From NCBI GenBank assembly GCA_028346125.1, contig JAOMEV010000001.1, positions 1 through 64,000 on the forward strand: DNA of 64,000 nt, written 5' to 3'. Positions 13,129-40,998 of the stretch are shown one piece after another; the first letter of the stretch is position 1, and each line of letters starts with the position of its first letter. Origin of the DNA: Bacteriovoracales bacterium. Its GTDB lineage: Bacteria > Bdellovibrionota > Bacteriovoracia > Bacteriovoracales > Bacteriovoracaceae. The notes beneath the pieces were generated by a model. The model had not been told where the DNA came from, ran no database searches, and saw nothing but the letters and a program-made list of their open reading frames with translations. The translations under genes were made by a program, and so were the position numbers.

Positions 13129-14061
13129 TTAATTAATCATGGCGAGTAACTTCTCTAATTCTTTTATAATGTTGTTTTCTCCAATTTTATAAAAATCAAT
13201 CAAAAGGTTTTGAGAACCATACTTTTCAGGAAAAACGTCAGGCAAGGCCATCTTTTTGAAGACGACTTTGTGGTGATAACACTTTTCTGCAATCAGATCA
13301 CTTACGATACTACCTAGCCCTCCAATAACTGAGTGTTCCTCAAGGGTCATAACAATTTTAGATGAGAGTATAGAGTTTAAAATAAAATCTTCATCCAAAG
13401 GCTTAAGAGTGTGACAGTTTAAAACTCCCACATTAACACCAAGCTTTTCAAAATGTGCTGAAACTTTTAAAGCGCGGTCTACCATAACACCACAGGAGAT
13501 AAGCGTTACCTCTGCAGGGTTTTTAAAAATAATAGGTTTTCCAATTTTAAAACCAAGTTCTTCTTTTGAAACTATAGGATCTCCACCTTTTGCTATTCTA
13601 AAATAAATTGGTCCAGGGTAATCAATGGAAGCCTTAATGGCCCTTTCCATTTCATCTGCATCAGAACAAACTATGATGGTCATATTCGGAATAGTCCTCA
13701 TAATGGCTATATCTTCAAATGCAAGATGAGTTGGACCCAAAGGTGCGTAAACGAGGCCGCCACCATTGCCAATAAGCCTTACTTTGGCCTTGGTCATTCC
13801 TAGGTCGATAATGTTTTGTTCAAAGCACCTTCTTGTAATGAAGGTTGCAATTGTATTGACAAAGACTTCTTTGCCTTCCATCGCAAGCCCTGTGGCCATA
13901 CTTATTATATGCTGTTCTGAAATACCCTCCATAAAAAACCGGCCGGGCATCTCATTTTTGAACTCATCAAGAGTTCCTTGTCCTAGATCAGAGCCAATAA
14001 AGACGATATTTTCGTTTAACTTGGCCATTTCGTAGATTGTTTTAAGACACCTTTTTCGCAT
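13129..14061 (-). CDS. transketolase C-terminal subunit
   Basis: FIGSDLGQGTLDEFKNEMPGRFFMEGISEQHIISMATGLAMEGK; pyrimidine-binding transketolase motifs. Confidence 0.92.
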   Translation of the reverse strand: MRKRCLKTIYEMAKLNENIVFIGSDLGQGTLDEFKNEMPGRFFMEGISEQHIISMATGLAMEGKEVFVNTIATFITRRCFEQNIIDLGMTKAKVRLIGNGGGLVYAPLGPTHLAFEDIAIMRTIPNMTIIVCSDADEMERAIKASIDYPGPIYFRIAKGGDPIVSKEELGFKIGKPIIFKNPAEVTLISCGVMVDRALKVSAHFEKLGVNVGVLNCHTLKPLDEDFILNSILSSKIVMTLEEHSVIGGLGSIVSDLIAEKCYHHKVVFKKMALPDVFPEKYGSQNLLIDFYKIGENNIIKELEKLLAMIN

Positions 14062-14068
14062 AGCCTTC

Positions 14069-14896
14069 CTATTGTTCTTTATCGATGGCCTCTTTCAACC
14101 TTTGTACTTCTTCTGGCCTTAATCGTGCTTTATGATGCCATTCTAAATTGTTTTCTACAAATGAAATTCCCTTCCCTTTAATTGTATGGCAGATAACTGC
14201 GTGGGGCTTATTACATTTGTAATTGATTTTATTTTGTAGAATATCTTCCAATATAAGTGGGTCATTCATGTCGGCTTCGTAAACATTAAAACCAAAGGCC
14301 TTCCATTTGTCACTGTAGGGCTCCAAATTTAGAACCTCTGAGACAGGGCCATATGACTGGTACTTATTATAGTCAATGATAACAATGAGGTTTCCAAGGT
14401 TATGCTTTGAGGCACTAAGGGCGGCTTCCCAAGTGCTGCCCTCATTACTTTCACCATCGCCAATCGCTACAAAAACTCTAAAGTTTTTTTTATCTATTTT
14501 AGCCCTAAGGGCCATACCCATACCAATAGAAAAACCATGGCCTAGTGCTCCCGTAGAAGCTTCAACTCCAGGTATTTTTTCATGCTCCGGGTGACCTCCT
14601 AAAATGCCATCGAAGGCACAAAATTTATAAAGCTCCGTTTTAGGAAAAAATCCTTTCTTGGCCAAAATGGGATAGAGAGCAAGACAGCCATGTCCTTTAC
14701 TCAGTATAAATCTGTCTCGGTCGTCCCATTCAGGGTCGTGAGGTCGGTAATTTAAAACTGATTCATAAAGAACGTTAAGGATTTCAACCAAAGAAAAGGC
14801 GGAGCCAATGTGACCTCTCCCTGCCTTATCGACAATATCAATAATACTCTTCCGAATCACTTTCCCTAGACCATTATAATCTACATAATTTGGCAT
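14069..14896 (-). CDS. transketolase N-terminal subunit
   Basis: GRGHIGSAFSLVEIL, SKGHGCLALYPIL, ThDP motif IGDGESNEGSTWEAALSASKHNLGNLIVIIDYN. Confidence 0.93.
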   Translation of the reverse strand: MPNYVDYNGLGKVIRKSIIDIVDKAGRGHIGSAFSLVEILNVLYESVLNYRPHDPEWDDRDRFILSKGHGCLALYPILAKKGFFPKTELYKFCAFDGILGGHPEHEKIPGVEASTGALGHGFSIGMGMALRAKIDKKNFRVFVAIGDGESNEGSTWEAALSASKHNLGNLIVIIDYNKYQSYGPVSEVLNLEPYSDKWKAFGFNVYEADMNDPLILEDILQNKINYKCNKPHAVICHTIKGKGISFVENNLEWHHKARLRPEEVQRLKEAIDKEQ

Positions 14897-17629: not shown

Positions 17630-18100
17630 TCATTCCCAAACTATGCTAGATGTCATGTGTTTTGCCACATCCATTGGTAGCTTTTTCAAACACAAAGATT
17701 TAGCTAAAATAAAATTTTCAATGTAGGCCAAATCTTCTTTTGAACAGATTTTCTTTTCTTCCAAGGCAAAATGCAATTCTTTTCCTTGGTCTAAAATAGA
17801 AATGATTAATTCTTTAGCTAACGTTAGAGAATTTGGTAACTGGTGCACTGAGTAAAAAACCATCCCATCCAATTTTGATAAATTTTTTATTTCACCATTA
17901 AGCTGCATAAAGCATTCTTTCATGTAGTATTCAGCAGTACTCAAAAAGTATTCCAGGTTGTTCAAAGAAGCATAGTTTCTTATAACCAAGTTTTGAACTC
18001 TTTGGGGAATGATATTCCCGTTAATAAAAGTAGATGATACATATCCTCTGAGTTTCTTGCTCATTTTATCAAACCTCTGGAGTAAAATAATCAAACCCAA
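17630..18100 (-). CDS. sporadic carbohydrate cluster protein, LIC12192-like family
   Basis: KLRGYVSSTFINGNIIPQRVQNLVIRNYASLNNLEYFLSTAEYYM...LDGMVFYSVHQLP...GKELHFALE matches the recalled family pattern; overlaps 18069-18875. Confidence 0.7.
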   Translation of the reverse strand: MGLIILLQRFDKMSKKLRGYVSSTFINGNIIPQRVQNLVIRNYASLNNLEYFLSTAEYYMKECFMQLNGEIKNLSKLDGMVFYSVHQLPNSLTLAKELIISILDQGKELHFALEEKKICSKEDLAYIENFILAKSLCLKKLPMDVAKHMTSSIVWE

Positions 18101-18875
18101 GACGAGTTAATGGCCTTATGGTTATAGGCTCAAATGTCTCTCCCAGTTCTTTAGCGCGGTAGGGGCTGAGAAGGCTCTTAAAGCGAACATTTATGCTCCA
18201 CCTTGTATGAGGTTCGTCGTTTAAGCGGTTTCCATGCATAAGGGTATGAGAAAAAATAACATAAGACCCTAAGCGGGTATTTAGAAAAATAAAATCCTTT
18301 TCAAACTCCTTAAATAAATTTTCGGAATCTAAGTAACTATATTGTTTGAAGTTTCTCATAATCTGGTCATTTTTTTTTCTTGGAATAAGATACATGGATC
18401 TAGTTTTGTAGCAATCTGTTAGAGGAACCCAAAGAACAACTTCGTATGGAGAGTTTCCATTCCATACGTCAGAATGTAGCGGTAATAGAGAAGATTTATC
18501 GTGGGGGTATTGAATGCTAAAGTTTACGTTCCTTTGCATTGAAAGTTCGTTCCCCACGATAGAATTAATGTAACTTTTTGTATTTTGGTATAATTTTGGT
18601 CGTAAAAAACTTCTGGAGTTCATTTTTTTGATAACCTCTAATCGAAATTTATTAAGCTCATCCTGAGGTATAAAAAGGTGAGTATTGTCAAAAAAATAGT
18701 CAATATCTTTGGGTCTATTAGTAGAGCTTAAGTAATTCTCCTCAAAAATTTTATAAATTTCGTATCTTATTTTTAAAACAAAGGAATAGTTTTTTAGGGG
18801 AGATTCAATATAGCCATCTTCTAAAAAATTATCTTCAATAATCTTTTCATGATCATTAAAAAAATTACTTTTCAC
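18069..18875 (-). CDS. 2OG-Fe(II) oxygenase of sporadic carbohydrate clusters
   Basis: LPLHSDVWNGNSPYEVVLWVPLTDC (HxD) ... LMHGNRLNDEPHTRWSINVRFKSL (distal His and Arg); GTG start with GGGGGGAG. Confidence 0.75.
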   Translation of the reverse strand: MKSNFFNDHEKIIEDNFLEDGYIESPLKNYSFVLKIRYEIYKIFEENYLSSTNRPKDIDYFFDNTHLFIPQDELNKFRLEVIKKMNSRSFLRPKLYQNTKSYINSIVGNELSMQRNVNFSIQYPHDKSSLLPLHSDVWNGNSPYEVVLWVPLTDCYKTRSMYLIPRKKNDQIMRNFKQYSYLDSENLFKEFEKDFIFLNTRLGSYVIFSHTLMHGNRLNDEPHTRWSINVRFKSLLSPYRAKELGETFEPITIRPLTRLGFDYFTPEV

Positions 18876-19002
18876 TCCCCCCCCTTTTTTTTAAAATGAG
18901 AATTTTAACTCCCTTTTTAACAAATGGTGTATGTTATCGTAACTAAACTTTAAAAAAACTTTCGCCTTTGATCTTTTATTTAGTCTATAATCCTGCTTGC
19001 TT

Positions 19003-19096
19003 ATGACTCCAATTTCAAGATTACCCCATAAAAAAGGGGGAGAAAATAAAAAGTTTCAAACAGTAAAACTTTTGGAAAGCGTTTCCATTGAAAAGA
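19003..19096 (+). repeat. dispersed repeat copy B (possible IS end), plus orientation
   Basis: ATGACTCCAATTTCAAGATTACCCCATAAAAAAGGGGGAGAAAATAAAAAG...TTTTGGAAAGC aligns with the reverse complement of 9376-9473. Confidence 0.75.
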
Positions 19097-19370
19097 ATTT
19101 CTCGTAGGGTAAATCAATGAAAAAAGGTTTAATAAATTCTCATATGCTTCTTAAAAAAGAAAAATAAGTTAACACCGACAGGTAATATTGTTACTTTTCT
19201 TTGAATACTTATGTCAAAGAGGCAATTAGTTGAATCGTAAAAAAACCTGTCCCATTGACTATAATTCGGTCAACGAAGTCTATATCAATTTTAAGAGTTT
19301 GGGTACTGGGAACAAAATTGCAATGATTACCAAAATAAAATTTTCAATTCATGAAAATTAGATGAAATAA

Positions 19371-19805
19371 TCAACTACATAAAAAATTTTCATAATTTCT
19401 TTGAAATTTTTTTAAAATTGGTATGTTAGACTGAAGTTGTTTTTGGTACATGTAAAGCTGTGGCCAAAAAATTTCTAAATCTTCGATCCCGTGCATTGAA
19501 ACATCTTCCCGTGCGAAATGAACCTCATAGCCATTATTTAAAATTTGTTTAAGCAAATTAATATTAAATTGTGATCCATAACAAAATTGATGTACCCTAA
19601 AAAAAATAAAGCCATTAACGCTCGGGCTCAATTTTATCCTTGTCTTGGCACAGCTTTGTGACTCCAGAGTAGAGAGGTGCTCAACAGTATAAAAGACAAT
19701 CGAACCATCTAACTTTTTCGCTTTTTCACTGTTGATTAAGTGTTGGGAAGGTTGTGGTAGACTTTTTAAAAATCCTAAATCCAAAAATGAATAATAACTT
19801 TTCAT
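19371..19805 (-). CDS. divergent LIC12192-like paralog
   Basis: VNGFIFFRVHQF...LKQILNNGYEVHFAREDVSMHGIEDL aligns with the 17630-18100 product; start overlaps the stop of 19802-20560 (ATGA). Confidence 0.6.
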   Translation of the reverse strand: MKSYYSFLDLGFLKSLPQPSQHLINSEKAKKLDGSIVFYTVEHLSTLESQSCAKTRIKLSPSVNGFIFFRVHQFCYGSQFNINLLKQILNNGYEVHFAREDVSMHGIEDLEIFWPQLYMYQKQLQSNIPILKKFQRNYENFLCS

Positions 19806-20560
19806 ATTAAATCTACCTCTTGTGACTTCAATGCGATCTGAGATAGAGGGGACATTTTTAAAACCCTAAAAAACTCAAGGGGATCTTTATGGCCACAAGG
19901 AGAGTAAAGTGATTTGAATCTAATATTTAAAGTCCATCTAGTCTCATCTTCTTTGTTCATTAAACAGCCATGTATAAGGCCCGTCCAAAAAACTAGACTT
20001 GATCCATAGTTTATATTAGAGAATTCAGCATTTTTTTCTGAGTAATCTTGAAAATAAGAATGTTCTTTTTTTTCTTTCAATATATCATTCGCTATCCTAG
20101 ATTTTTTTGAATCCAGAATATACATTCCCTTTGTATTAAAAATATTTACTAAAGGCACCCACAAAACAATTTCAAAGGGAGAATTAACCGGGGCATCTTG
20201 ATGGGTTAGGACATAGTCTTTGTCATTCGGTTGTTGAATGACCAAATTACAAGACTTTTGAACAAGAATATCTGGTCCTATTAAACCTAGTATCGTTTCC
20301 TCATATGCCTCGAAAATTAATTTTAGGGTATCTTTTTCTTTAAGAGTTTTAATAATATCCATTCTAAAATTATTGAGAGCATGGCCTTTTAAATTTAATT
20401 TATGAAAATTATTAAAAAAATCATCAGGGCTTTTTAAGTTATTTTTTTTTAATGTTTCTATGGACTTGGAAAAAATTATGTTTTTTATTTCATTTAGCTT
20501 CTCAATATTGGAAGCTTTAACAACTTCAAAACCATTTTTAGCAAAGCTTTCATACTTCAT
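19802..20560 (-). CDS. 2OG-Fe(II) oxygenase, paralog of 18069-18875
   Basis: LTHQDAPVNSPFEIVLWVPLVN (HxD) ... LIHGCLMNKEDETRWTLNIRFKSLYSPC. Confidence 0.75.
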   Translation of the reverse strand: MKYESFAKNGFEVVKASNIEKLNEIKNIIFSKSIETLKKNNLKSPDDFFNNFHKLNLKGHALNNFRMDIIKTLKEKDTLKLIFEAYEETILGLIGPDILVQKSCNLVIQQPNDKDYVLTHQDAPVNSPFEIVLWVPLVNIFNTKGMYILDSKKSRIANDILKEKKEHSYFQDYSEKNAEFSNINYGSSLVFWTGLIHGCLMNKEDETRWTLNIRFKSLYSPCGHKDPLEFFRVLKMSPLSQIALKSQEVDLI

Positions 20561-20611: not shown

Positions 20612-21343
20612 TCAATACCTTAAAACCCTTTCAGGTTCCTTAGAAAAAGTTTCTTTATTGGTCACTTTTATATCCCAATAAACCTTGATTAAGTAATAAA
20701 ATGTTTTAACTAGGTTTGTGAATTTTAGTGCGACGCTTTTATCATGGTTTGGCTGAAAAAAACAGGGGACTTCAAAAAACTTTGTACCTGAAAGTAGTGT
20801 TTTGGCACTAAGCTCTAAAGTAAACGTATATCCTTCTGACTTGATGTCCATTTTTCTTAAAGCTTCAGTCGAATAAATTCCCCCACCATTAATATATTTA
20901 AGATGAATATTAAAAAGAAGTCTGCACATTTGAGTAAATGTTTCTGATAGTAAAATTCTCAACCTCGGCCGTATTTCGGTATTTACAAAATAGTAACAGA
21001 CAAAGCAATCTTCGTTGCAGTATTTAAAAAAACTTTCAAACATTGAGACTCCGACAACGTTGTCTCCTGGGAAAAAACCAACTTTAGGATATTGAGCATG
21101 TGTTACGATGGTTTTGACACTTTTACCAATACCGTAATTTTTTTCATGCTTAATTGTACGTATGAATGAATGATTGGACTCCCAGCCTTTCATAATTTCG
21201 TAGGTACTATCTGAACTGCCATCATCAACAACGATAATTTCAAAAGGAATATTTGGAAAATTTTTCGAGGCCTTGATAATAACTTCGATGGTATTTGAAA
21301 TATTTTTTTCTTCATTTAAAGCAAAAATTCCAAAAGTAATCAT
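20612..21343 (-). CDS. glycosyltransferase family 2 (DPM1-like)
   Basis: ITFGIFALNEEKNISNTIEVIIKA, IIVVDDGSSDSTYEIMKGW. Confidence 0.88.
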   Translation of the reverse strand: MITFGIFALNEEKNISNTIEVIIKASKNFPNIPFEIIVVDDGSSDSTYEIMKGWESNHSFIRTIKHEKNYGIGKSVKTIVTHAQYPKVGFFPGDNVVGVSMFESFFKYCNEDCFVCYYFVNTEIRPRLRILLSETFTQMCRLLFNIHLKYINGGGIYSTEALRKMDIKSEGYTFTLELSAKTLLSGTKFFEVPCFFQPNHDKSVALKFTNLVKTFYYLIKVYWDIKVTNKETFSKEPERVLRY

Positions 21344-21393: not shown

Positions 21394-23934
21394 TCATATC
21401 TTATAAAAATGACTTTTTATAATAAGAATTCTTGAATAATTCCAAATTTTATTAAAACCTATCGCAAAAGAAAGAACGACGAAATTACTTTGAAAAAACC
21501 AATAACGATCATGAACGTTATGCATAAAACAGAAGAAGCAAAAATAACCAAAACTAGTTAACAATAGGCTCGCTACGATAAACTTGTTTTGCGACTTAAA
21601 GGCATAATAGACACCTAAAAGTACAACTAATATCCATAAAAATTTGACAATACCTTTAAGGCTGGATGCTTTAAAAAAAATTGAATAGTTTTTTAATACA
21701 TTTTTCAAACCAGAAAAGAAAATCAAACTTAAATTATTCTTAGTCAATCTCAAGATTATACTACTGGCCTCTTTTTTAGTATAGTGGACGTATTCTTTGG
21801 TCTCTGGATCGACTAGTGTTAAGCGATCAACTTCTCTAAAAATTGGCATGAAATGGTTATTGCCGTTATAGTGTATTCTGTTGCCCAAGCGTTCAAATTT
21901 GTTAGATATTTTATTAAATTTTTTAAATTTTAATATTTCTGCATCATTTTGGTTCGGTGGTAGAAGAGTTGCCTTTTGGGCCAAAAGGTTTTCAGATTTA
22001 AACTTAGAAGACTCTGGGTACAGAGATTTTGTAAAAAAAACCAGCGGTAATATAGAAAAAAGCAAAATTAGTGCTTTATAAAAACTTTTATGTCCGTAAA
22101 CAAAATTCTCTTTTCTTACTAGTAAGGAAAGGGCCAGAGAGATTATAAATAGTATAATAAGGTAAACTCCAGTCAAAAGATTTATTTGCATTGATAAAAA
22201 CGTTGATGCTAAAAAAAAATATAAATAATTTGAATTTAAAGAAGGTGATTTTAAATATTTGAAATATATTGTTATAATACATGTCAAAAAAATTGTTAAG
22301 AAAAGTTCGGTTATATCAGCTCTAGCAAAATAATAGAAAGGGTTATCCTTAAAGCAGAGCTGGGACATGAATAATAGAGACGTTATAGAGTTAAAGTATT
22401 TCTTAATTTGTACATAAAAAATTAAGAAAAAGAAGACCATAAACCAAGATTGAACAATTCGAACAGAACAGGCACTATACATATCTAGCATTTTCATGAA
22501 AATGGATTCTAGAAACGGATAACCAGCTTGACGGTAAGTATGACTTATTCCAAGCAAACCTTTGGTCAAAGAATCTACTCCCTTAATCACCTTATAGTCT
22601 AAAATTGTTTTAAGGCTGGTCAGAGAAAAAATCTTAAAACTTCCATCGATACTTGCAGTAAAAAGATATTTCCCACTACTATCTAGAGACAATGTACTAA
22701 TGGCTGACTTGTGAAAATAGTGTTTTCCTATCTCGTGATCAAAGTTATTATTATAAAGATATAAATGACCAAGTTTATCACCTAAAATTATATGAGGATA
22801 TATATTTTTTTTATCATATGGAATCGGAACCCTTATTTTCGGTCGTAAAAATTTATTTCTTGAATAGCCTTTCCAATGAACTTTTTTACATTGCCAATTT
22901 TTAAATAAACAACTAAATATGAAACCACTTCTAGTCGAAATGTAAATGTCATTACCTTCTTTACCAACCTTTATATCATAAATTTCTTCATGTCCTTTCA
23001 ATAGGAATTTTTTCTTCCATGTATTTATATCCCAAGCGTAAGCATAAGTGTCATAGCTTCCACTGAACAATTTCTTCTGATTAGGAGAGAACTCAAGAGA
23101 TGTAATACTTGAGTAATGACCATAAAGAATTTTCACAACCTTCAGACTATCTATTTCTAAAATAGTGATTTTTCCATCCTCACCACCTACCGCCAAAAGG
23201 TCCATTGAGGGTTCATAGGCCAGACTTAAAATAGCTCCTTTGTGTAATGGAATTTTATTTAAAATTATTAAATCTTTTGAACTCCATACAAAGATGTCTC
23301 CATTTTGATTCCCCGTTACAAATAAACCTTGGTTTTCAATTCTTTTAATTGATGTAATTTTATTCTCTTTCGGGTTATTGATTTTTATTGGTTTCTCTTC
23401 TTTCAAATTTTGAAGAAAGAAATCTCCATTACCGTAAGCAAAAGCAAACCCATTGACATCCCTTAGAAAAGTTGATGATGCCCTAAATTTCAAATAGTTA
23501 TAACTATTATCATCCCTTAAAGAGAGGGGTTCCTCTATTGAAGAAGGTTTTCCACAATACCATTTTGCGAGGTTTGTATAATTATCGTTATCTTGCCAGT
23601 AACAACCTTCCGTTCTGAGGTGATTTTTTGTTGATAGTTTTGTTTCAAAAAATGCAAAAGAAAAAAGATTAATTACAATGAGTGAACCCAAAGTAATTTC
23701 TAGCAAAGTGGATAACTTAACCCTAGATTTTTTTTTATTGATGAGATAACTCATTGTGATGACAGTTAGAAATGAAATGAATAGGAACAAAACATTATGC
23801 TGTTTCAATAAGTCTGCGGCATAGTTTAAAAAATAATTTCCGATAAGAGCTTTAAAACAAAACAACAAAAATATAAAGAATAATGGTAGCAAAATTACAA
23901 CTGTAATATGGTAGTTTTTTTTAAAATAAGTCAT
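21394..23934 (-). CDS. GT-C-like multi-TM membrane protein with inserted WD40-like beta-propeller
   Basis: N-terminal TM segments; WD-like repeats at aa ~140-450 (GHYSSITSLEFSPNQKKLFSGSYDTYAYAWDI, DSSGKYLFTASIDGSFKIF); C-terminal TM half with YRQAGYPFLESIF and HDRYWFF. Confidence 0.75.
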   Translation of the reverse strand: MTYFKKNYHITVVILLPLFFIFLLFCFKALIGNYFLNYAADLLKQHNVLFLFISFLTVITMSYLINKKKSRVKLSTLLEITLGSLIVINLFSFAFFETKLSTKNHLRTEGCYWQDNDNYTNLAKWYCGKPSSIEEPLSLRDDNSYNYLKFRASSTFLRDVNGFAFAYGNGDFFLQNLKEEKPIKINNPKENKITSIKRIENQGLFVTGNQNGDIFVWSSKDLIILNKIPLHKGAILSLAYEPSMDLLAVGGEDGKITILEIDSLKVVKILYGHYSSITSLEFSPNQKKLFSGSYDTYAYAWDINTWKKKFLLKGHEEIYDIKVGKEGNDIYISTRSGFIFSCLFKNWQCKKVHWKGYSRNKFLRPKIRVPIPYDKKNIYPHIILGDKLGHLYLYNNNFDHEIGKHYFHKSAISTLSLDSSGKYLFTASIDGSFKIFSLTSLKTILDYKVIKGVDSLTKGLLGISHTYRQAGYPFLESIFMKMLDMYSACSVRIVQSWFMVFFFLIFYVQIKKYFNSITSLLFMSQLCFKDNPFYYFARADITELFLTIFLTCIITIYFKYLKSPSLNSNYLYFFLASTFLSMQINLLTGVYLIILFIISLALSLLVRKENFVYGHKSFYKALILLFSILPLVFFTKSLYPESSKFKSENLLAQKATLLPPNQNDAEILKFKKFNKISNKFERLGNRIHYNGNNHFMPIFREVDRLTLVDPETKEYVHYTKKEASSIILRLTKNNLSLIFFSGLKNVLKNYSIFFKASSLKGIVKFLWILVVLLGVYYAFKSQNKFIVASLLLTSFGYFCFFCFMHNVHDRYWFFQSNFVVLSFAIGFNKIWNYSRILIIKSHFYKI

Positions 23935-24179: not shown

Positions 24180-26051
24180 CTATTTCAGCTCGTATATTTT
24201 GATAAATCTGTGGTTCTTATCCCACCGCGTTTTATCATTAAATTCAAGGGGGGTGTCTGATACAATAGAAAGAGATTTAACTAGCTTGTAATCCTTAAAA
24301 GTAGTCAAAAAAGTGTCTCTTGTTACCTCTTCACCATTAGACAAGTTTTTAAACCTTAGGAAGTCATCTTTTGTGGGGATTGATTGGTTAGAAATCATAG
24401 CAAATTTAGTAAAATATTTTGGTTTCGGTTTTGAACTCCACTTTTGTCTAAATTTTTCATAACTTTTTGGTACCTGCATTTCCGTTAATACAGGAAACTC
24501 CTTATTTAATTTATTCATAAAGGAAAGCTGCATGGTGCTGCGAAATTCAAACACTGATTTTATATTATTAGCTCTAAAGATTTTTATGAGGTCCTTCTCA
24601 ACAAAGGGATCTTGACGTTCTTTAGAATGGTCATGATAACTAAGAAAGAATACCCCTACAATTGCAATGATTAAGCTGAATAGAAAAGTTGTTTTTATAA
24701 AATGTAAAATTGGAGATAATCTCAATCTATAAAAAGAAACCGCCCCTTCTGCCATCAGTAAGGTGAAAAATGGGAGAAGGATTAAACTATGTCTAGTAGG
24801 GCTGAATGCTATTTTTTGAAAAATAACTAGGGCAATCCAGGTTATCGAAGCAAAAATAAAAAAAAGCAAAAAATAACGCTTTCGCAAGTCCTCGCTTCTA
24901 TACAAAGAAAAGCAACCTAGTACAAAAAAAAGAAAGAAAATGACTGAAAAAATGTTGCTAATGTTAGGATAATTATTAGAAAAATACAGGTTATAATTAA
25001 AAACATCAATAAAGTTAAAAAAGAAAAATTTTATAGGATACAAGGACTTTAAAGATTGAAGCGAGTTGTCAAATAGGTATTCGTTATTCCGTCCTGTATT
25101 ACTATTAAGCCCATATTCACTCAGTCGGATGAGGTTATATTTTAAGGGATAGATCAATATTAAGTATAATATTCCTCCGCGAAAAACCTTCAAACTAAAT
25201 GATAGAGCTTCTCTTCGATTAAATGTGTATTGCTTAAGAGCAAAAAAATAATAAGCTAGATGGTACTTTAGGGTCAGGTTGAACTTTCCTCTACGAAGGA
25301 CTTTTAAACTAAACCGTGGTGTGTCCTTTCGGTTAGATATATATTGCCTGGCGACAAAAAGGTAATAAGTTAAATAAATTGAAGGTAAAAGAAAAAGGAC
25401 TTGATAATGGGCATGGCTAAGAAGGGCAAGCAATATGGCCATAGTAACGTGAAGATTATTGTTTTTCCAGTTTTCTCCTTCTGTTAGTTGACGCCATAAA
25501 AGGATGAGAATAAGAATGCTGGATAAGACTCCAAACGCATAATTTAACGCTTGGACAGAGAAAATTATATTTGACCATGAAAATGTAATAATGGTGGTTC
25601 CATAAAGGGACAAAATAAATTTTTCTTTGAAGCTACCTGAATTAAAATGAAATAAGAACAAAGGAAAAATAAAAAGGCCAAGACATCCGAGCAAAAAAGA
25701 AGGTAACCTTCCCCAGAACAATGTCTCTCTATAATTGTGTGGTTTTATTAATAATAATGAAGTCAAATAGTACTGCAAGGGCGCCATAGACCAATAATCT
25801 GGAACTGTAGAAAAAAACTGGATGTAATTTTTTACAGAAGCGCTTGCTTTACGCGTAATCTCCCATTGCTTTTGGCCGATTTCACTCTTTTGATAATCAA
25901 ACCTTTTTTTTCCATATTTTATGTGGAATGCAACACCTAAATCGTCATTATTTGGAAAATGGTTATCGAGTAAACTTAATCGAGCAAAAATTCCTGAGAA
26001 GATTATAAAACATAAAATAAAAAGGGGAAATTTATGTTTAAGAGTAAACAT
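24180..26051 (-). CDS. GT-C/ArnT-PMT-like membrane glycosyltransferase
   Basis: Multi-TM; NNDDLGV and DYWSMAPLQYYLTSLLL loop motifs; PTRHSLILLPFFTLLMAEG. Confidence 0.65.
   Translation of the reverse strand: MFTLKHKFPLFILCFIIFSGIFARLSLLDNHFPNNDDLGVAFHIKYGKKRFDYQKSEIGQKQWEITRKASASVKNYIQFFSTVPDYWSMAPLQYYLTSLLLIKPHNYRETLFWGRLPSFLLGCLGLFIFPLFLFHFNSGSFKEKFILSLYGTTIITFSWSNIIFSVQALNYAFGVLSSILILILLWRQLTEGENWKNNNLHVTMAILLALLSHAHYQVLFLLPSIYLTYYLFVARQYISNRKDTPRFSLKVLRRGKFNLTLKYHLAYYFFALKQYTFNRREALSFSLKVFRGGILYLILIYPLKYNLIRLSEYGLNSNTGRNNEYLFDNSLQSLKSLYPIKFFFFNFIDVFNYNLYFSNNYPNISNIFSVIFFLFFVLGCFSLYRSEDLRKRYFLLFFIFASITWIALVIFQKIAFSPTRHSLILLPFFTLLMAEGAVSFYRLRLSPILHFIKTTFLFSLIIAIVGVFFLSYHDHSKERQDPFVEKDLIKIFRANNIKSVFEFRSTMQLSFMNKLNKEFPVLTEMQVPKSYEKFRQKWSSKPKPKYFTKFAMISNQSIPTKDDFLRFKNLSNGEEVTRDTFLTTFKDYKLVKSLSIVSDTPLEFNDKTRWDKNHRFIKIYELK
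25140..25367 (-). repeat. internal tandem duplication, two 38-aa units
   Basis: YYLFVARQYISNRKDTPRFSLKVLRRGKFNLTLKYHLA / YYFFALKQYTFNRREALSFSLKVFRGGILYLILIYPLK. Confidence 0.8.
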
Positions 26052-31915: not shown

Positions 31916-32147
31916 TTTAAATAAAAATTAAAACAGAATAATTGGTCCAAAAAAACGTTCTTTTACTTCATCAAAAACTATTGGTGAGGTCGTCTTAAGC
32001 ATCAGACCTAAAAATAACATTTAAAATAGTAGTTCTATGGCATAGTTTAAAAAATGGTTTACAAGCGGTTTCTATTTAATAAGAATAATTTTAGGAGTGT
32101 TTTGTGCCATCTCTTTAATATGTCATTTCAAAACAGGATTAATCGAA

Positions 32148-33863
32148 ATGTATTTTTTTAAAGCTTCTATAGAAAATAATAGATATTTGAAATACTTTTT
32201 ATTTTTTTTGCTTGGAGGGATTTATCTCTTCATTACAAAGTTTAAAGGCTTTTATACTATTTACAGTAATCAGGAGACTTATTTTTTACATGGACTTTCA
32301 ATGGCCAATAAAGGCTTTCTAGTTAATGACTGGTATGTTCATAAAGTCTTCCATCATCATTTTGCATTTGGCTATATTGTTTTATTAATGGAAAAACTAG
32401 GTGGAGTAAAAACTTGGGTTCACATTTTCCAGTTCTTGTGTATGGGAATGGTAAGTTATGGGATTTATTTAATTGCAAATTCTTTTTCAAAACTACCTTC
32501 TCTTGTGTGGCTCATAACATTGTCGTGGATAGGGTTTGTAGGTCCAGGTGACTTTGGTCTAGGGTGGCAACAAGTTTTTGTGGGCTATTTAATGCCCTCA
32601 GAAGTTTCTGGCGGATTTTTAGTTTTTGGTTTCGGGCTTCTTTTTTCAAGAAGTTATTTTTTAGCAGGGCTTTCTTTAGGTCTTGGGGGGCTCTTCCATG
32701 GAGCCCATCTTGCAAGTTTTGCACTACCAATTCTTGGCGCATCTTTTGAATGTGGTGTCTGGAAGAATAAAAAAAACTTTTTTAAGTTTTGCGGCCCATT
32801 TACTTTTTTATGGGGCATTTTTAGTATTATTGTTATTTATAAGATGCTTACCATTTCTGGTGGTAATGATGAAACTATGGCCACGATGGTTAATTTCCGG
32901 AATAAGGGTGACCTTCAAATAGAAAAGTGGGGATTGTGGGACACTTTAGCTTGGCATATGTGGATATTACCGGCCCTTTTTATTTCAAAATTAAATTCAC
33001 AAAAGATCTTTTTTCGAAATACCCTTGTTATTACTTTTGTTTTCTGCTTGATTAATATCCTCCAAATAAGCTTTTTAAAAATTGATACAATTACTGCAAT
33101 GATGCTTTGGAGATCAGCTTCTCTGGCCAGTTTACTTTCTATCATAATCATTTCGGATAAATTACTAGAATCAATTTTCAATAAAGAGGCACTGTCGACC
33201 TCTTTATTGATAATCTTGTCTTTATCCGCAGCATTTCTTGTATGGTATGCTCCAAGCAATATAAGAATATGGTGGCTCTTATCATTTCCTTTACTCTATA
33301 CAGTTGGCCATGTTCGCTTAAAATATAATTGGTTAAAGCTTCCTTCCATCACATCCTTAACTCTCATTTTTTTCTCCTTGGTTATTTTAAGAACCTTCTC
33401 AATAGGACTAAAAAAAACAAAAATAACACAGCAGTACCCTGAAGATTCAGTGGAAGTTTCAGAGCTTTATAAGTGGATAAATAATAATTCCGAAAAAGAT
33501 TCTATGTTTATTATTCCTTTGGATCTTAAGTACTTTAGATATAGGGCCAATCGTTCTATAGTAATTGATTGGAAATCTGTTGCTCAATTAAAGGGCGATA
33601 TATCAAATTGGTACGAAAGAGTTAGAGATGTTTTGGGTTTAACTCATGAACGTGTTGTTCAAGAAGTTAAAAAAGTAGAGTATCCAAATGATATACTTGT
33701 TAAGAAAAGTTACAATATGTTTAATTGGAATAGGGCGGAATATATTGGAAAAAAATATGGTGCCAACTTCCTGGTAGTTTATTCTAAAGATCATCAAGGA
33801 AATTTACCATTAGAAAGGAAAGTATTTGAGAATAGGGGGTATCGAGTCTATAAAATCAACTAA
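32148..33863 (+). CDS. multi-TM membrane protein (GT-C-like or Wzy-like)
   Basis: Long hydrophobic ORF; conserved-looking DWYVHKVFHHHFAFGYI loop; ATG at 32148 (ORF track also allows GTG at 32097). Confidence 0.7.
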   Translation: MYFFKASIENNRYLKYFLFFLLGGIYLFITKFKGFYTIYSNQETYFLHGLSMANKGFLVNDWYVHKVFHHHFAFGYIVLLMEKLGGVKTWVHIFQFLCMGMVSYGIYLIANSFSKLPSLVWLITLSWIGFVGPGDFGLGWQQVFVGYLMPSEVSGGFLVFGFGLLFSRSYFLAGLSLGLGGLFHGAHLASFALPILGASFECGVWKNKKNFFKFCGPFTFLWGIFSIIVIYKMLTISGGNDETMATMVNFRNKGDLQIEKWGLWDTLAWHMWILPALFISKLNSQKIFFRNTLVITFVFCLINILQISFLKIDTITAMMLWRSASLASLLSIIIISDKLLESIFNKEALSTSLLIILSLSAAFLVWYAPSNIRIWWLLSFPLLYTVGHVRLKYNWLKLPSITSLTLIFFSLVILRTFSIGLKKTKITQQYPEDSVEVSELYKWINNNSEKDSMFIIPLDLKYFRYRANRSIVIDWKSVAQLKGDISNWYERVRDVLGLTHERVVQEVKKVEYPNDILVKKSYNMFNWNRAEYIGKKYGANFLVVYSKDHQGNLPLERKVFENRGYRVYKIN

Positions 33864-37239: not shown

Positions 37240-38469
37240 TTAAATAAAATAAGTACGCTTAGAAAATTCTTCTAGTAAATTCATACCATCCCAATTTACG
37301 TCAAACTGTAGCGCCTGTCCAATTGGTACGATGCGATCAATGCCTCTTCCATTTAAACAAGTAACCAAATTTTCTATTTCATTTTTTGTAAAGCCAAAAT
37401 AAGAAAGAGTCTGGTCCTTTTTCACAACTATATTCTCTAACTCATTAATTCGCTTTAAGTTTATGACATAAAAGATTCCACTACCGATATTCTCTCTATC
37501 AAAGTTAGTTAAATCCTCAACCTCTGAAACGATTAGTTCATTACTTAAAAAGTTTATGTCTTTAATAAAGCCCTGTGCGGATTTTTTGTAGAGAAAAGTT
37601 AACTTTTTCATCAGTAGGCTTGTAGAAATCTTAAATTTTCTCTGAATTATTTCGTTCTTTAATAACTGGAAGAAATCAACCTTTGCTTTTTTATTATTGT
37701 TTTCCTCGCCTACAAAAATGGCAAGTCTTGGGGAGGAGCAGGCAAGCTGATCAAATAAATATGCGTCTGAAAAAAACCTACTTGTTAAATTTTTTCTATC
37801 CTCAAGCTCTAGTGCCAAAAACTCTTTTGAATTTATTGCTGCCATTGAAAACCTATCGTAAAACTTTAGGTCTTTTCCTTGTGGTCGCAGCTGAAAACGC
37901 TGAATGTTTTGTATTGTTTGATCTCCTCCCCAAATCGCTCTAACATCAGCTAACTTACTAAAAAACGAGTTAAATTTATCATTATGTCCGTAGTTCACAA
38001 CAAGATTAGATTCAGAAATATTTGCATATACCTTTACTCGAAATAGTTTTTTTATTATTTCCAGCAGAATTTCTAAGTTTTTTGATTGTTGCTGTGAGAC
38101 ACGAACAATATTTTTGTTACCGACAAGAAAAGAACAAATCCAGGAGTAAATAAAAATAGTCTCAACATTTTTAGGTGCTATATGAAAACACAAACCACGA
38201 CTTGTTCTAGTGCCTTCTGATGATTTAAAAAAATCTTTTTTTAAATTCATCAGATTGGATCTTCTTAGCCAGTAAGCGAGGGCCTGTATGTCGTGAAACT
38301 TTTTTATTCTATTATCTTTAAAAATGGCCTTTGAAAAATCATTACAAAAATCAATCAGATGGTCTTCGAAAGGTTTAAAAAGAGAGGGTGAGGAAAAGTT
38401 ATAATGTTCTAATAAATCACTTTCGTCGACTTCCTTTTCGCTTTCCAGCGTTAAAATTTCAAGTGTCAT
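37240..38469 (-). CDS. LuxC-like acyl-CoA/acyl-thioester reductase
   Basis: GLCFHIAPKNVETIFIYSWICSFLVGNKNIVRVS, ADVRAIWGGDQTI, LFDQLACSSPRLAIFVG. Confidence 0.85.
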   Translation of the reverse strand: MTLEILTLESEKEVDESDLLEHYNFSSPSLFKPFEDHLIDFCNDFSKAIFKDNRIKKFHDIQALAYWLRRSNLMNLKKDFFKSSEGTRTSRGLCFHIAPKNVETIFIYSWICSFLVGNKNIVRVSQQQSKNLEILLEIIKKLFRVKVYANISESNLVVNYGHNDKFNSFFSKLADVRAIWGGDQTIQNIQRFQLRPQGKDLKFYDRFSMAAINSKEFLALELEDRKNLTSRFFSDAYLFDQLACSSPRLAIFVGEENNNKKAKVDFFQLLKNEIIQRKFKISTSLLMKKLTFLYKKSAQGFIKDINFLSNELIVSEVEDLTNFDRENIGSGIFYVINLKRINELENIVVKKDQTLSYFGFTKNEIENLVTCLNGRGIDRIVPIGQALQFDVNWDGMNLLEEFSKRTYFI

Positions 38470-38475
38470 TTTTAA

Positions 38476-40998
38476 TTAAACTCCATATGAGTCACTACAT
38501 CCACGAATTTGGACATTAGGAATACGACCCTCGACTTTAAAATATTTCCCTTTTCTTTCACATGAGCAATCATCCTCACCATATAATGTCCCAATGTCTT
38601 CAGTTAAAATACTATGACCCGGGTAACTTTGAGGAAGTAAACTTAAAACCTGAATAATACCAGATTTATTTTTTGTTAAAGGCTTTAAGGTATTCTTATC
38701 ACGTATGATGATGTCTGAGAAGTTTGGTGTATGGAGGAAGCCTTTTTCACATTCGACAAAGACACTTCCAACTTGTTCTACCATACCATAAAAATTGTAT
38801 ATTTTTGAAAGGTGAAATCGTTTATTAAGATGATTTTTAAAAACATCATTTGTAACAGAAATATTCGATAGGTTTTTCCACCCACCACTATGAATTAAAA
38901 AAGAATTCTTTAAATTAACTTTCAAGTGGTGGTAGTTTTCCAAAAAGTATTTCCAAACCATATAAGTGAATCCGAAAATTAGAATAGGTTTTGTCTGGTA
39001 CCTTGAAAGCCATTTCAAAACTTTGTCCGCTTGAAGATTCATTTGATCATCTAATAAATACATATGGTCTCTTCCAAAATTGGACATTCCCAAAATTCCA
39101 GCGCCACGGGCATTGAAAGATGATTTGTTCTTGAAAACACTTTGGCTATCTATAATAAGCATTGGCAATCTTTTTTTGCCTAGGATATAGCTCATTATAT
39201 TAACTAAACCTTTTGTCTGATTCATTGAGGTGGTTTTATCTAGATAAATACGACTGAGTTCACCAGAAGTCGTACCACTAGAAGTAAGTGTTTTATAGAT
39301 TTTGCTCTCAGAAACACTAGTAAGTTCCAATTGTTTAAAAAGCTGTACTGGTAAGTATGGTACATCCTCAATAGTATCGAAACGATCCAAATTATTATAA
39401 AAAGTATGGATTATATTTTTATAATAATTGCTATTTTTGTAATGAAATTCATTTAAGTTATTCAAGCTCTCTAAAAAAAATTTAGATTTTTTATTCTTCT
39501 TGTAAGAAAAAGGTTCAGAATTAAAATGGCCTTGAATATCTTTAGAATAGGCCAAATATTTGAGCTCTTTGTAATCTATTTTTCCATTACCTAAAGTTGG
39601 AATTTGATCAATATAATAAAACTCAAAGAAATTTTTGTTAATCTTGCAAAAGTCTGAAAGAAGTTGTTGAAAATAACTATAATCGTCTATCTTCGTTTGT
39701 GTAAATATTCTTATTTTATTGTCATCACCACTAATCGCATATGTCCCTAACTCTACCAATTGGTTTTCGAGATCGTCCAGATTAATTCGAATTCCAGATA
39801 TTTTAGAAAACCTTTTTAAGCGACCAGTTATATATAAAAAGCCTTTGTTATCCAAATAACCTATATCGCCAGTTCTTAAGCTTTCTCCCTGAGTATCACA
39901 TTTTGATAGGTCTTCTCTTGAGTTCGAATACCCCATCATCACATTATCACCTTGATAGAAAATTTCTCCCTCAATACCTGGCTTTTGAATAACTCCGTTT
40001 TCATTCTTGATAAAAATTTTCCCACCAGGGATGGCCTTACCAACAGAGCCTATATTCGCAGACAATGCTTCAGCTGCTAAAATAGTAATTCTGGCAGTGG
40101 CCTCCGTTTGTCCATACATAACATACAAAAAACCGTTCTTTTTTTCTATTTGATCTAGAAATAATCTAATTTCCCGGTTTCCTAATTTTCCACCAGCTTG
40201 AGAAAATTTTTTCAAACTAATCGGAAACCTGTTATATAATTTTAGCTTGTTTATCATGTTGTAGGTGGAAGGCACTCCTGCAAATGAGCTGACTTTATAT
40301 TTAGAAATAATTTCCCAAAACTCTTTTTGGATGATTCCGGTTTTAGTAAAAACTACGGAGGCTCCAACGTTAAGATGAGTTTGAAGAACGGAAAGTCCAT
40401 ATGAATAATATAAAGGTAGGTTGATTATTGCTCTATCTATAGATTCAATTTTTAGGGCCTCAATAATAGACAAAGTATTTTTTTTAACGGCTTTTTTAGA
40501 TAGCCGTATAAGCTTTGGGTTTCCTGTCGTTCCAGATGTTGAAAGCAAAAGTTTTAGGGAGGTGTTAATTTTCGAATATTTATGACTTCCTTCAATCTTG
40601 ATCAGCTTCATTAAAATAAGCTTTTCTTCATTGATTTTGTTAGAAAAAAAACCCTTTTCCTCTAATGCTTTTTTTAAAGAAGACCCTTCGTCACTATCAG
40701 GTATCAAACAGAATTCTGGGGAATATAGGGAAACTAGATTTAAAGAACTACTCAACGTGGTATTCATGTCTAACAAAAAAACCGCATGACTCGAAAAAAA
40801 TGAGGACAAGTAACCAATAGTAGAGGCTACATCACTTTTACAAAAACAAAATATTAACTTTTTTTTTACCTTTGGGAGGTATGATTTAACAGAGTTGATT
40901 CTTCCTAATAAATCCCTATAAGTGACGAATTCCCCTGTATCACTATCTATGAGTGCCACTTTCTTATTGAATTTTCTAACAAAAGATTTCATCTTCAT
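38476..40998 (-). CDS. fusion of AMP-forming acyl ligase (N-terminal) and LuxE-like acyl-protein synthetase (C-terminal)
   Basis: N-terminal LLLSTSGTTGNPKLIRLS, YGQTEATARI, RTGDIGYLD; C-terminal LTSSGTTSGELSRIYLD, YNFYGMVEQVGSVFVECE, IRGCSDSYGV. Confidence 0.88.
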   Translation of the reverse strand: MKMKSFVRKFNKKVALIDSDTGEFVTYRDLLGRINSVKSYLPKVKKKLIFCFCKSDVASTIGYLSSFFSSHAVFLLDMNTTLSSSLNLVSLYSPEFCLIPDSDEGSSLKKALEEKGFFSNKINEEKLILMKLIKIEGSHKYSKINTSLKLLLSTSGTTGNPKLIRLSKKAVKKNTLSIIEALKIESIDRAIINLPLYYSYGLSVLQTHLNVGASVVFTKTGIIQKEFWEIISKYKVSSFAGVPSTYNMINKLKLYNRFPISLKKFSQAGGKLGNREIRLFLDQIEKKNGFLYVMYGQTEATARITILAAEALSANIGSVGKAIPGGKIFIKNENGVIQKPGIEGEIFYQGDNVMMGYSNSREDLSKCDTQGESLRTGDIGYLDNKGFLYITGRLKRFSKISGIRINLDDLENQLVELGTYAISGDDNKIRIFTQTKIDDYSYFQQLLSDFCKINKNFFEFYYIDQIPTLGNGKIDYKELKYLAYSKDIQGHFNSEPFSYKKNKKSKFFLESLNNLNEFHYKNSNYYKNIIHTFYNNLDRFDTIEDVPYLPVQLFKQLELTSVSESKIYKTLTSSGTTSGELSRIYLDKTTSMNQTKGLVNIMSYILGKKRLPMLIIDSQSVFKNKSSFNARGAGILGMSNFGRDHMYLLDDQMNLQADKVLKWLSRYQTKPILIFGFTYMVWKYFLENYHHLKVNLKNSFLIHSGGWKNLSNISVTNDVFKNHLNKRFHLSKIYNFYGMVEQVGSVFVECEKGFLHTPNFSDIIIRDKNTLKPLTKNKSGIIQVLSLLPQSYPGHSILTEDIGTLYGEDDCSCERKGKYFKVEGRIPNVQIRGCSDSYGV

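Follow-up and report, generated by a model that had tools for sequence, protein, structure and literature searches.

A gene in the 64,000-nucleotide stretch of Bacteriovoracales DNA that was analysed (the window) encodes an 846-aa protein that is likely to be a GT-C membrane glycosyltransferase with a WD40 propeller in its first extracytoplasmic loop (EL1). The propeller would lie in the periplasm, most likely positioning an acceptor or docking a partner. In GT-C enzymes, EL1 bears a catalytic acid and helps to form both substrate sites. A preliminary description, made from the DNA letters, had placed the open reading frame at 21394-23934 and proposed a membrane enzyme of GT-C-like type with the propeller in its EL1. 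The coordinates proved exact, with an ATG start and a frame uninterrupted by internal stops. The assignment of the propeller is borne out by comparison with PMT_2 profiles, by homologues in two other genomes, by charge topology and by the glycan loci in which the genes are found. The features of the gene and its nearest neighbor are given in Table 1.

Table 1. Coordinates of the gene for the 846-aa protein, its parts and the adjoining GT2 gene in the window.
Feature	Position	Strand	Evidence or remark
Gene, GT-C-like protein with inserted WD40 propeller	21394..23934	minus	ORF, Pfam, homologues
Two extra N-terminal TM helices, aa 13-65	23740..23898	minus	hydropathy, alignment
TM helix equivalent to GT-C TM1, aa 77-99	23638..23706	minus	hydropathy, alignment
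DNDNYTNLAKWYCGKP, aa 115-130, first half of EL1	23545..23592	minus	alignment with PMT_2 DExxY acidic motif
Seven-bladed WD40 propeller, aa 152-449	22588..23481	minus	Pfam, AlphaFold, Foldseek
Cys pair C342/C349 inside propeller	22888..22911	minus	aligned with C345/C356 of G318 homologue
SHTYRQAGYPFL, aa 464-475, second half of EL1	22510..22545	minus	aligned with PMT_2 HPPL motif
PMT_2-like region, aa 463-634, TM helices after EL1	22033..22548	minus	hhalign, AlphaFold
Large second extramembrane stretch, aa 640-757	21664..22017	minus	hydropathy; would be where GT-C enzymes have their long EL4 loop
HDRYW ahead of the last helix, aa 808-812; R810 invariant	21499..21513	minus	three-homologue alignment
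GT2 glycosyltransferase downstream, co-oriented	20612..21343	minus	PF00535 E 1e-16; 50 bases past gene

Hydropathy places transmembrane (TM) helices at aa ~13-31, 47-65 and 77-95, after which the protein is non-membrane up to aa 487. Later helices follow at aa 488-506, 540-558, 588-606, 621-639, 761-779 and 785-803, and one more is likely near the C terminus, as judged by hydropathy and the AlphaFold model. By alignment, the extra N-terminal pair is present in one of the homologues described below (G318) and absent from the other (G035), which has a single TM helix ahead of the propeller, like canonical GT-C enzymes. The earlier assignment to the first extracytoplasmic loop therefore holds by homology to EL1 but not by count, since two extra helices precede the core and the loop comes after TM3. 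The propeller is flanked by DxDxY (aa 115-119) and RQxxYPFL (aa 468-475). The loop had been read as split by an inserted block, and it is, with DNDNYTNLAKWYCGKP at aa 115-130 and SHTYRQAGYPFLESIF at aa 464-479.

The inserted block is a true WD40 propeller. PF00400 matched the 846-aa protein with an E-value of 3.7e-20 (71.9 bits, against a cut-off of 27), three repeats lying within the E-value limit, and many Pfam families for whole WD40 propellers matched the same block, the lowest E being 2.6e-25. Its PDB sequence matches were designed and natural WD40 propellers. AlphaFold predicted ~26 strands at aa 153-448 in a seven-blade pattern, with pLDDT mostly 60-88; this run on the full protein used three sequences and gave a good propeller and a membrane half with pLDDT < 50. 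In Foldseek the propeller model matched WD40 structures with E 5e-19 and TMt up to 0.84 (7bie). The preliminary description had proposed a WD40-like propeller of at least five blades; its WD40 nature stands on Pfam, AlphaFold and Foldseek, and the number of blades is now seven. No conserved ligand-binding surface was identified on the propeller. Because its N and C ends meet, its insertion can spare the core fold.

The membrane half had no Pfam match, PF13231 giving none up to E 10, and the three-member family formed with the two homologues did not reach a score over the curated cut-off of PF13231. The Pfam domains anticipated earlier were found in part: PF00400 is there, and the GT-C half is recognized by no curated family. 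The assignment of this half to the GT-C type is supported by profile similarity to the PMT_2 family. The comparison set consisted of PMT_2 proteins from 39 relatives, 30 proteins being included in the profile, and the propeller was cut out of the family for the analysis only. When the propeller-less family (n = 3) was aligned with the 30 PMT_2 proteins by hhalign, an E-value of 3.8e-7 and a probability of 92.8 were obtained, and the alignment ran unbroken across the junction, starting at the DNDNY motif and reaching aa ~634. With reversed controls, E was 0.17 and 0.24; among 30 local column shuffles, the best value was 7.9e-4. The signal comes mostly from the part after the propeller, which gave 8.4e-7 alone (aa 463-634); the part before the propeller alone was not significant against PMT_2 (E 0.042). 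In MAFFT alignments of the untouched proteins, DNDNY fell on DExxY and RQAGYP on HPPL, and the columns of aa 150-450 held 4-28 residues in PMT_2 proteins compared to ~300 in the family. The family profile also matched L036, a propeller-less PMT_2 protein of 527 aa on which the homology is anchored, with E 2.5e-4 (3.4e-5 by hhalign), in an alignment that begins at the segment directly after the propeller. L036 itself matches PF13231 with E 8.9e-19. The other weak profile matches that were examined are unrelated proteins.

An AlphaFold model of aa 463-846, built with PMT_2 rows, had a mean pLDDT of 64.5; the first 130 residues were mostly above 75, and values of 60-90 extended over most of the first 180. 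A Foldseek search with this core model returned 32 PDB matches, all with E >= 0.8, with Pmt4 in first place (prob 0.92) and Stt3/OST, Pmt1-Pmt2 and ArnT also among the top ones, a test that is partly circular because PMT_2 rows were in the alignment behind the model. One PMT_2 match among the relatives, L070 (G005:C39), lies in a 1346-aa open frame, far above the size of the other relatives' PMT_2 proteins, and is possibly a fused or doubled GT-C.

Two motifs mark EL1 in GT-C enzymes: an acidic one and, close to where the second EL1 helix starts, another that reads SHKSYRP in TMTCs; an arginine ahead of a late helix (EL5, ERxxY) contacts the lipid phosphate (PMC7801869). Matched by eye, SHTYRQ and HDRYW of the window protein stand where SHKSYRP and ERxxY do. 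D117 is invariant in all three homologues and D115 is kept in two of them; the G318 homologue has Ser at the canonical first Asp of EL1 and retains the Asp two residues on. R468, R810 and the YP motif are likewise invariant, R810 being likened to the late-helix arginine of GT-C enzymes by position only, as the PMT_2 alignment is unreliable there.

The part after the propeller, used as the query, revealed a 785-aa homologue in G035, a genome of the same family as the window (contig JAUHVL010000003.1, 'bacterium isolate 1_bin.12'), and an 845-aa homologue in G318, from another family of the same phylum. Both have, in order, a TM helix or helices, a DAD or SAD motif, the propeller, RQPGYPFL or RQAAYPFL, and TM helices. 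The search for the same architecture elsewhere, proposed in the preliminary description, thus met it again in two independent genomes, and its conservation in three genomes can be read directly from the sequences. The full-length homologues are 21-25% identical to the window protein. Pairwise identity among the three members is 20-23% in the propeller and 22-26% in the core, a similarity expected of one old fusion, and the two parts seem from these sequences to have diverged together. In G318 the propeller is of textbook WD40 type (PF00400 E 1.3e-52); in G035 it is degenerate (E 1.1e-5).

The family is rare: profile searches of 369 genomes of the phylum found it in three, with no further members. 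A PF00400 scan found strong WD40 in 20 of the 369, and no ORF examined, except the known members, had TM helices on both sides; the scan listed strong repeats only and G035 fell below the cut, so members with weak propellers could escape it. One genome of this otherwise WD40-poor phylum, G208, has several clustered WD40 proteins (C2 and C26; 17 repeat matches). A scan of GTDB contigs gave no match with the window protein alone and only the G035 contig with a two-sequence alignment; it relies on short exact peptide stretches and misses divergent relatives, so absence outside the phylum cannot be read from it. No relatives of the 846-aa protein were found in plasmid, phage and viral collections.

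All three genes are housed in surface-glycan loci. In the window, the adjoining GT2 is a candidate donor-lipid or backbone transferase, and NDP-sugar epimerase-like genes, further GT2s, methyltransferases, radical SAM proteins and a UDP-sugar dehydrogenase are also encoded. The G035 gene has as neighbors a GT2 with C-terminal helices, epimerases, an Asn-synthase-like protein and a methyltransferase, and the G318 gene adjoins an ABC exporter, an epimerase, and GT2 and GT4 genes. Several other genes of the window were recorded. The membrane protein encoded at 24180-26051 (623 aa, polytopic) has a TMEM260-like match that is weak (E 0.0023); it is possibly a second GT-C enzyme of the locus and is not recognizable as a paralogue of the 846-aa protein (hhalign E 0.27). 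A tandem duplicated gene pair lies at 17630-20560 (18069-18875 and 19802-20560; identity 35%, E 3e-38), and an overlapping small ORF follows each duplicate (17630-18100 and 19371-19805, mutually similar with E 6e-8); the pair has no Pfam match, and its HxD...H...R is, by eye only, reminiscent of 2OG-Fe(II) oxygenases. Transketolase is encoded inside the sugar locus as two adjacent genes, for the N and C halves (13129-14896). In the glycan locus, a LuxC acyl-CoA reductase is encoded next to an 840-aa fusion of AMP-binding and LuxE acyl-protein synthetase (37240-40998). A 588-aa protein encoded at 32097-33863 has DUF6798 in its C-terminal part (E 3.4e-15).

With respect to the side of the membrane, the window protein has two positive charges at the N terminus and five in NKKKSRVKLST on the predicted inside, compared to one in the outside loop. 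The corresponding counts in the G318 homologue are 3, 5 and 2, and in the G035 homologue MKNK precedes the single helix. The predicted cytoplasmic segments bear 2-5 positive charges, the strongest being KKKSRVK / RNFKPAKRWK before TM3. By the positive-inside rule, the propeller is outside in each of the three homologues, in agreement with the topology proposed earlier, the charge rule being the sole basis. The Cys pair of the propeller is a possible disulfide, which would fit the periplasm.

In extracytoplasmic glycosylation, a synthase loads a sugar on polyprenyl phosphate, a flippase follows, and a GT-C enzyme then acts (PMC11127046). For the 846-aa protein we infer catalysis of this kind, in which a polyprenyl-phosphate carrier would supply the sugar at the outer face of the inner membrane. 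The propeller, inserted in EL1 after the acidic motif and ahead of the juxtamembrane segment preceding the next helix, would sit over the presumed active-site mouth, in the periplasm by the charge rule. There it would most likely bind and position the acceptor, which may be a surface polysaccharide under extension, a glycolipid or a secreted protein; alternatively, the propeller would dock a partner that does so.

The membrane half could instead be a GT-C-like scaffold that no longer catalyzes transfer, the protein being a subunit that uses its propeller in the periplasm to dock or regulate other glycan enzymes of the locus. The loss of the first Asp of EL1 in one of the three homologues, the identity of only 20-25% between members and the presence next door of a second large GT-C-like membrane protein (24180-26051) would suit such a role. 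Against it are the invariant D117, R468, R810 and YP motif and the D retained at the canonical position in two of three homologues, and we regard it as unlikely. It is more doubtful still that the membrane half is some other polytopic envelope enzyme, such as a Wzy- or WaaL-type polymerase or ligase, with a chance likeness to GT-C. Such an enzyme would be consistent with the lack of a Pfam match for this half and the weak E-values of the structure search, but the hhalign E of 3.8e-7 compares with 8e-4 or worse in controls, motifs align at both ends of EL1, and GT-C enzymes are among the best structure matches.

Bacterial WD40 domains are known in the cytoplasm as well, and a propeller on that side could sense a cytoplasmic ligand or partner. 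This is very improbable, as the charges in all three homologues fit an outside location, the Cys pair is aligned in two of them, and EL1 is extracytoplasmic in GT-C enzymes (PMC7801869; PMC11127046). A misassembly fusing two genes might be suspected in a draft genome of 178 contigs that is 68% complete. The frame is single and unbroken, however, and the same order of parts in the independent G035 and G318 genomes, at low identity, rules out an assembly chimera with near certainty. Cytoplasmic topology (judged by the charge rule only), a missing propeller and an assembly join were the outcomes that would have spoken against the preliminary description, and none was found.

Among known systems, PMT_2 (PF13231)/ArnT-like enzymes (GT83, GT39) share with the window family the EL1 acidic motif, though its first Asp is Ser in the G318 homologue, an HPP-type segment and the TM helices that follow, as well as profile similarity. 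With the propeller set aside, the window family is of normal PMT_2/ArnT-like size, ~475-540 aa; in contrast, PMT_2/ArnT-like members have ~4-28 residues at the propeller site, and the window family lacks a PF13231 score. PMT O-mannosyltransferases have a MIR domain and no propeller. DNDNY, SHTYRQ and HDRYW of the window protein are in places that by eye match the EL1 acidic, SHKSYRP and EL5 ERxxY motifs of TMTC/PMT O-mannosyltransferases, whereas TMTCs have a C-terminal TPR domain and no propeller (PMC7801869). GT136 (Citrobacter ORF12) and AftD also combine a GT-C core with an extracytoplasmic domain thought to bind acceptor glycan, but their added domains are CBMs rather than a WD40 propeller inserted in EL1 (PMC11127046; PMC12802301).

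The nearest counterpart, by description, is a mycobacterial complex of the GT-C enzyme AftB, FecB and the WD40 lipoprotein MMAR_1667/Rv3035, for which a CBM-like role has been proposed and the loss of which leads to growth defects resembling those from loss of its partners (PMC12802301). Like the window protein as read here, it unites a GT-C lipid-sugar transferase with an extracytoplasmic WD40 propeller. However, the mycobacterial propeller is a separate lipoprotein, predicted to be eight-bladed, in a trimer with the enzyme and the SBP-like FecB, whereas that of the window protein is in cis, in EL1. A literature search for GT-C enzymes with a propeller or WD40 domain found only this trans complex, in keeping with the earlier statement that no described example of the architecture was known, although few subscription papers were covered and an earlier description is possible. 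The preliminary description had suggested that the propeller could bind acceptor glycan or protein, which is plausible, and it probably holds an acceptor glycan or partner protein at the outer face of the enzyme. More tentatively, with somewhat less than even confidence, the proteins may form a distinct GT-C family in which the EL1 propeller is part of the acceptor site, its face selecting the glycan or protein, as a single-chain version of AftB-FecB-WD40 lipoprotein.

That EL1 tolerates a propeller of 300 residues, and that three distant genomes retain it, would offer a simple handle on acceptor choice by GT-C enzymes. The position of the propeller supports the idea that the WD40 protein of the mycobacterial AftB complex works right at the outer face of the enzyme, and in the window protein nature provides a WD40-GT-C pair on a single chain for structural studies.
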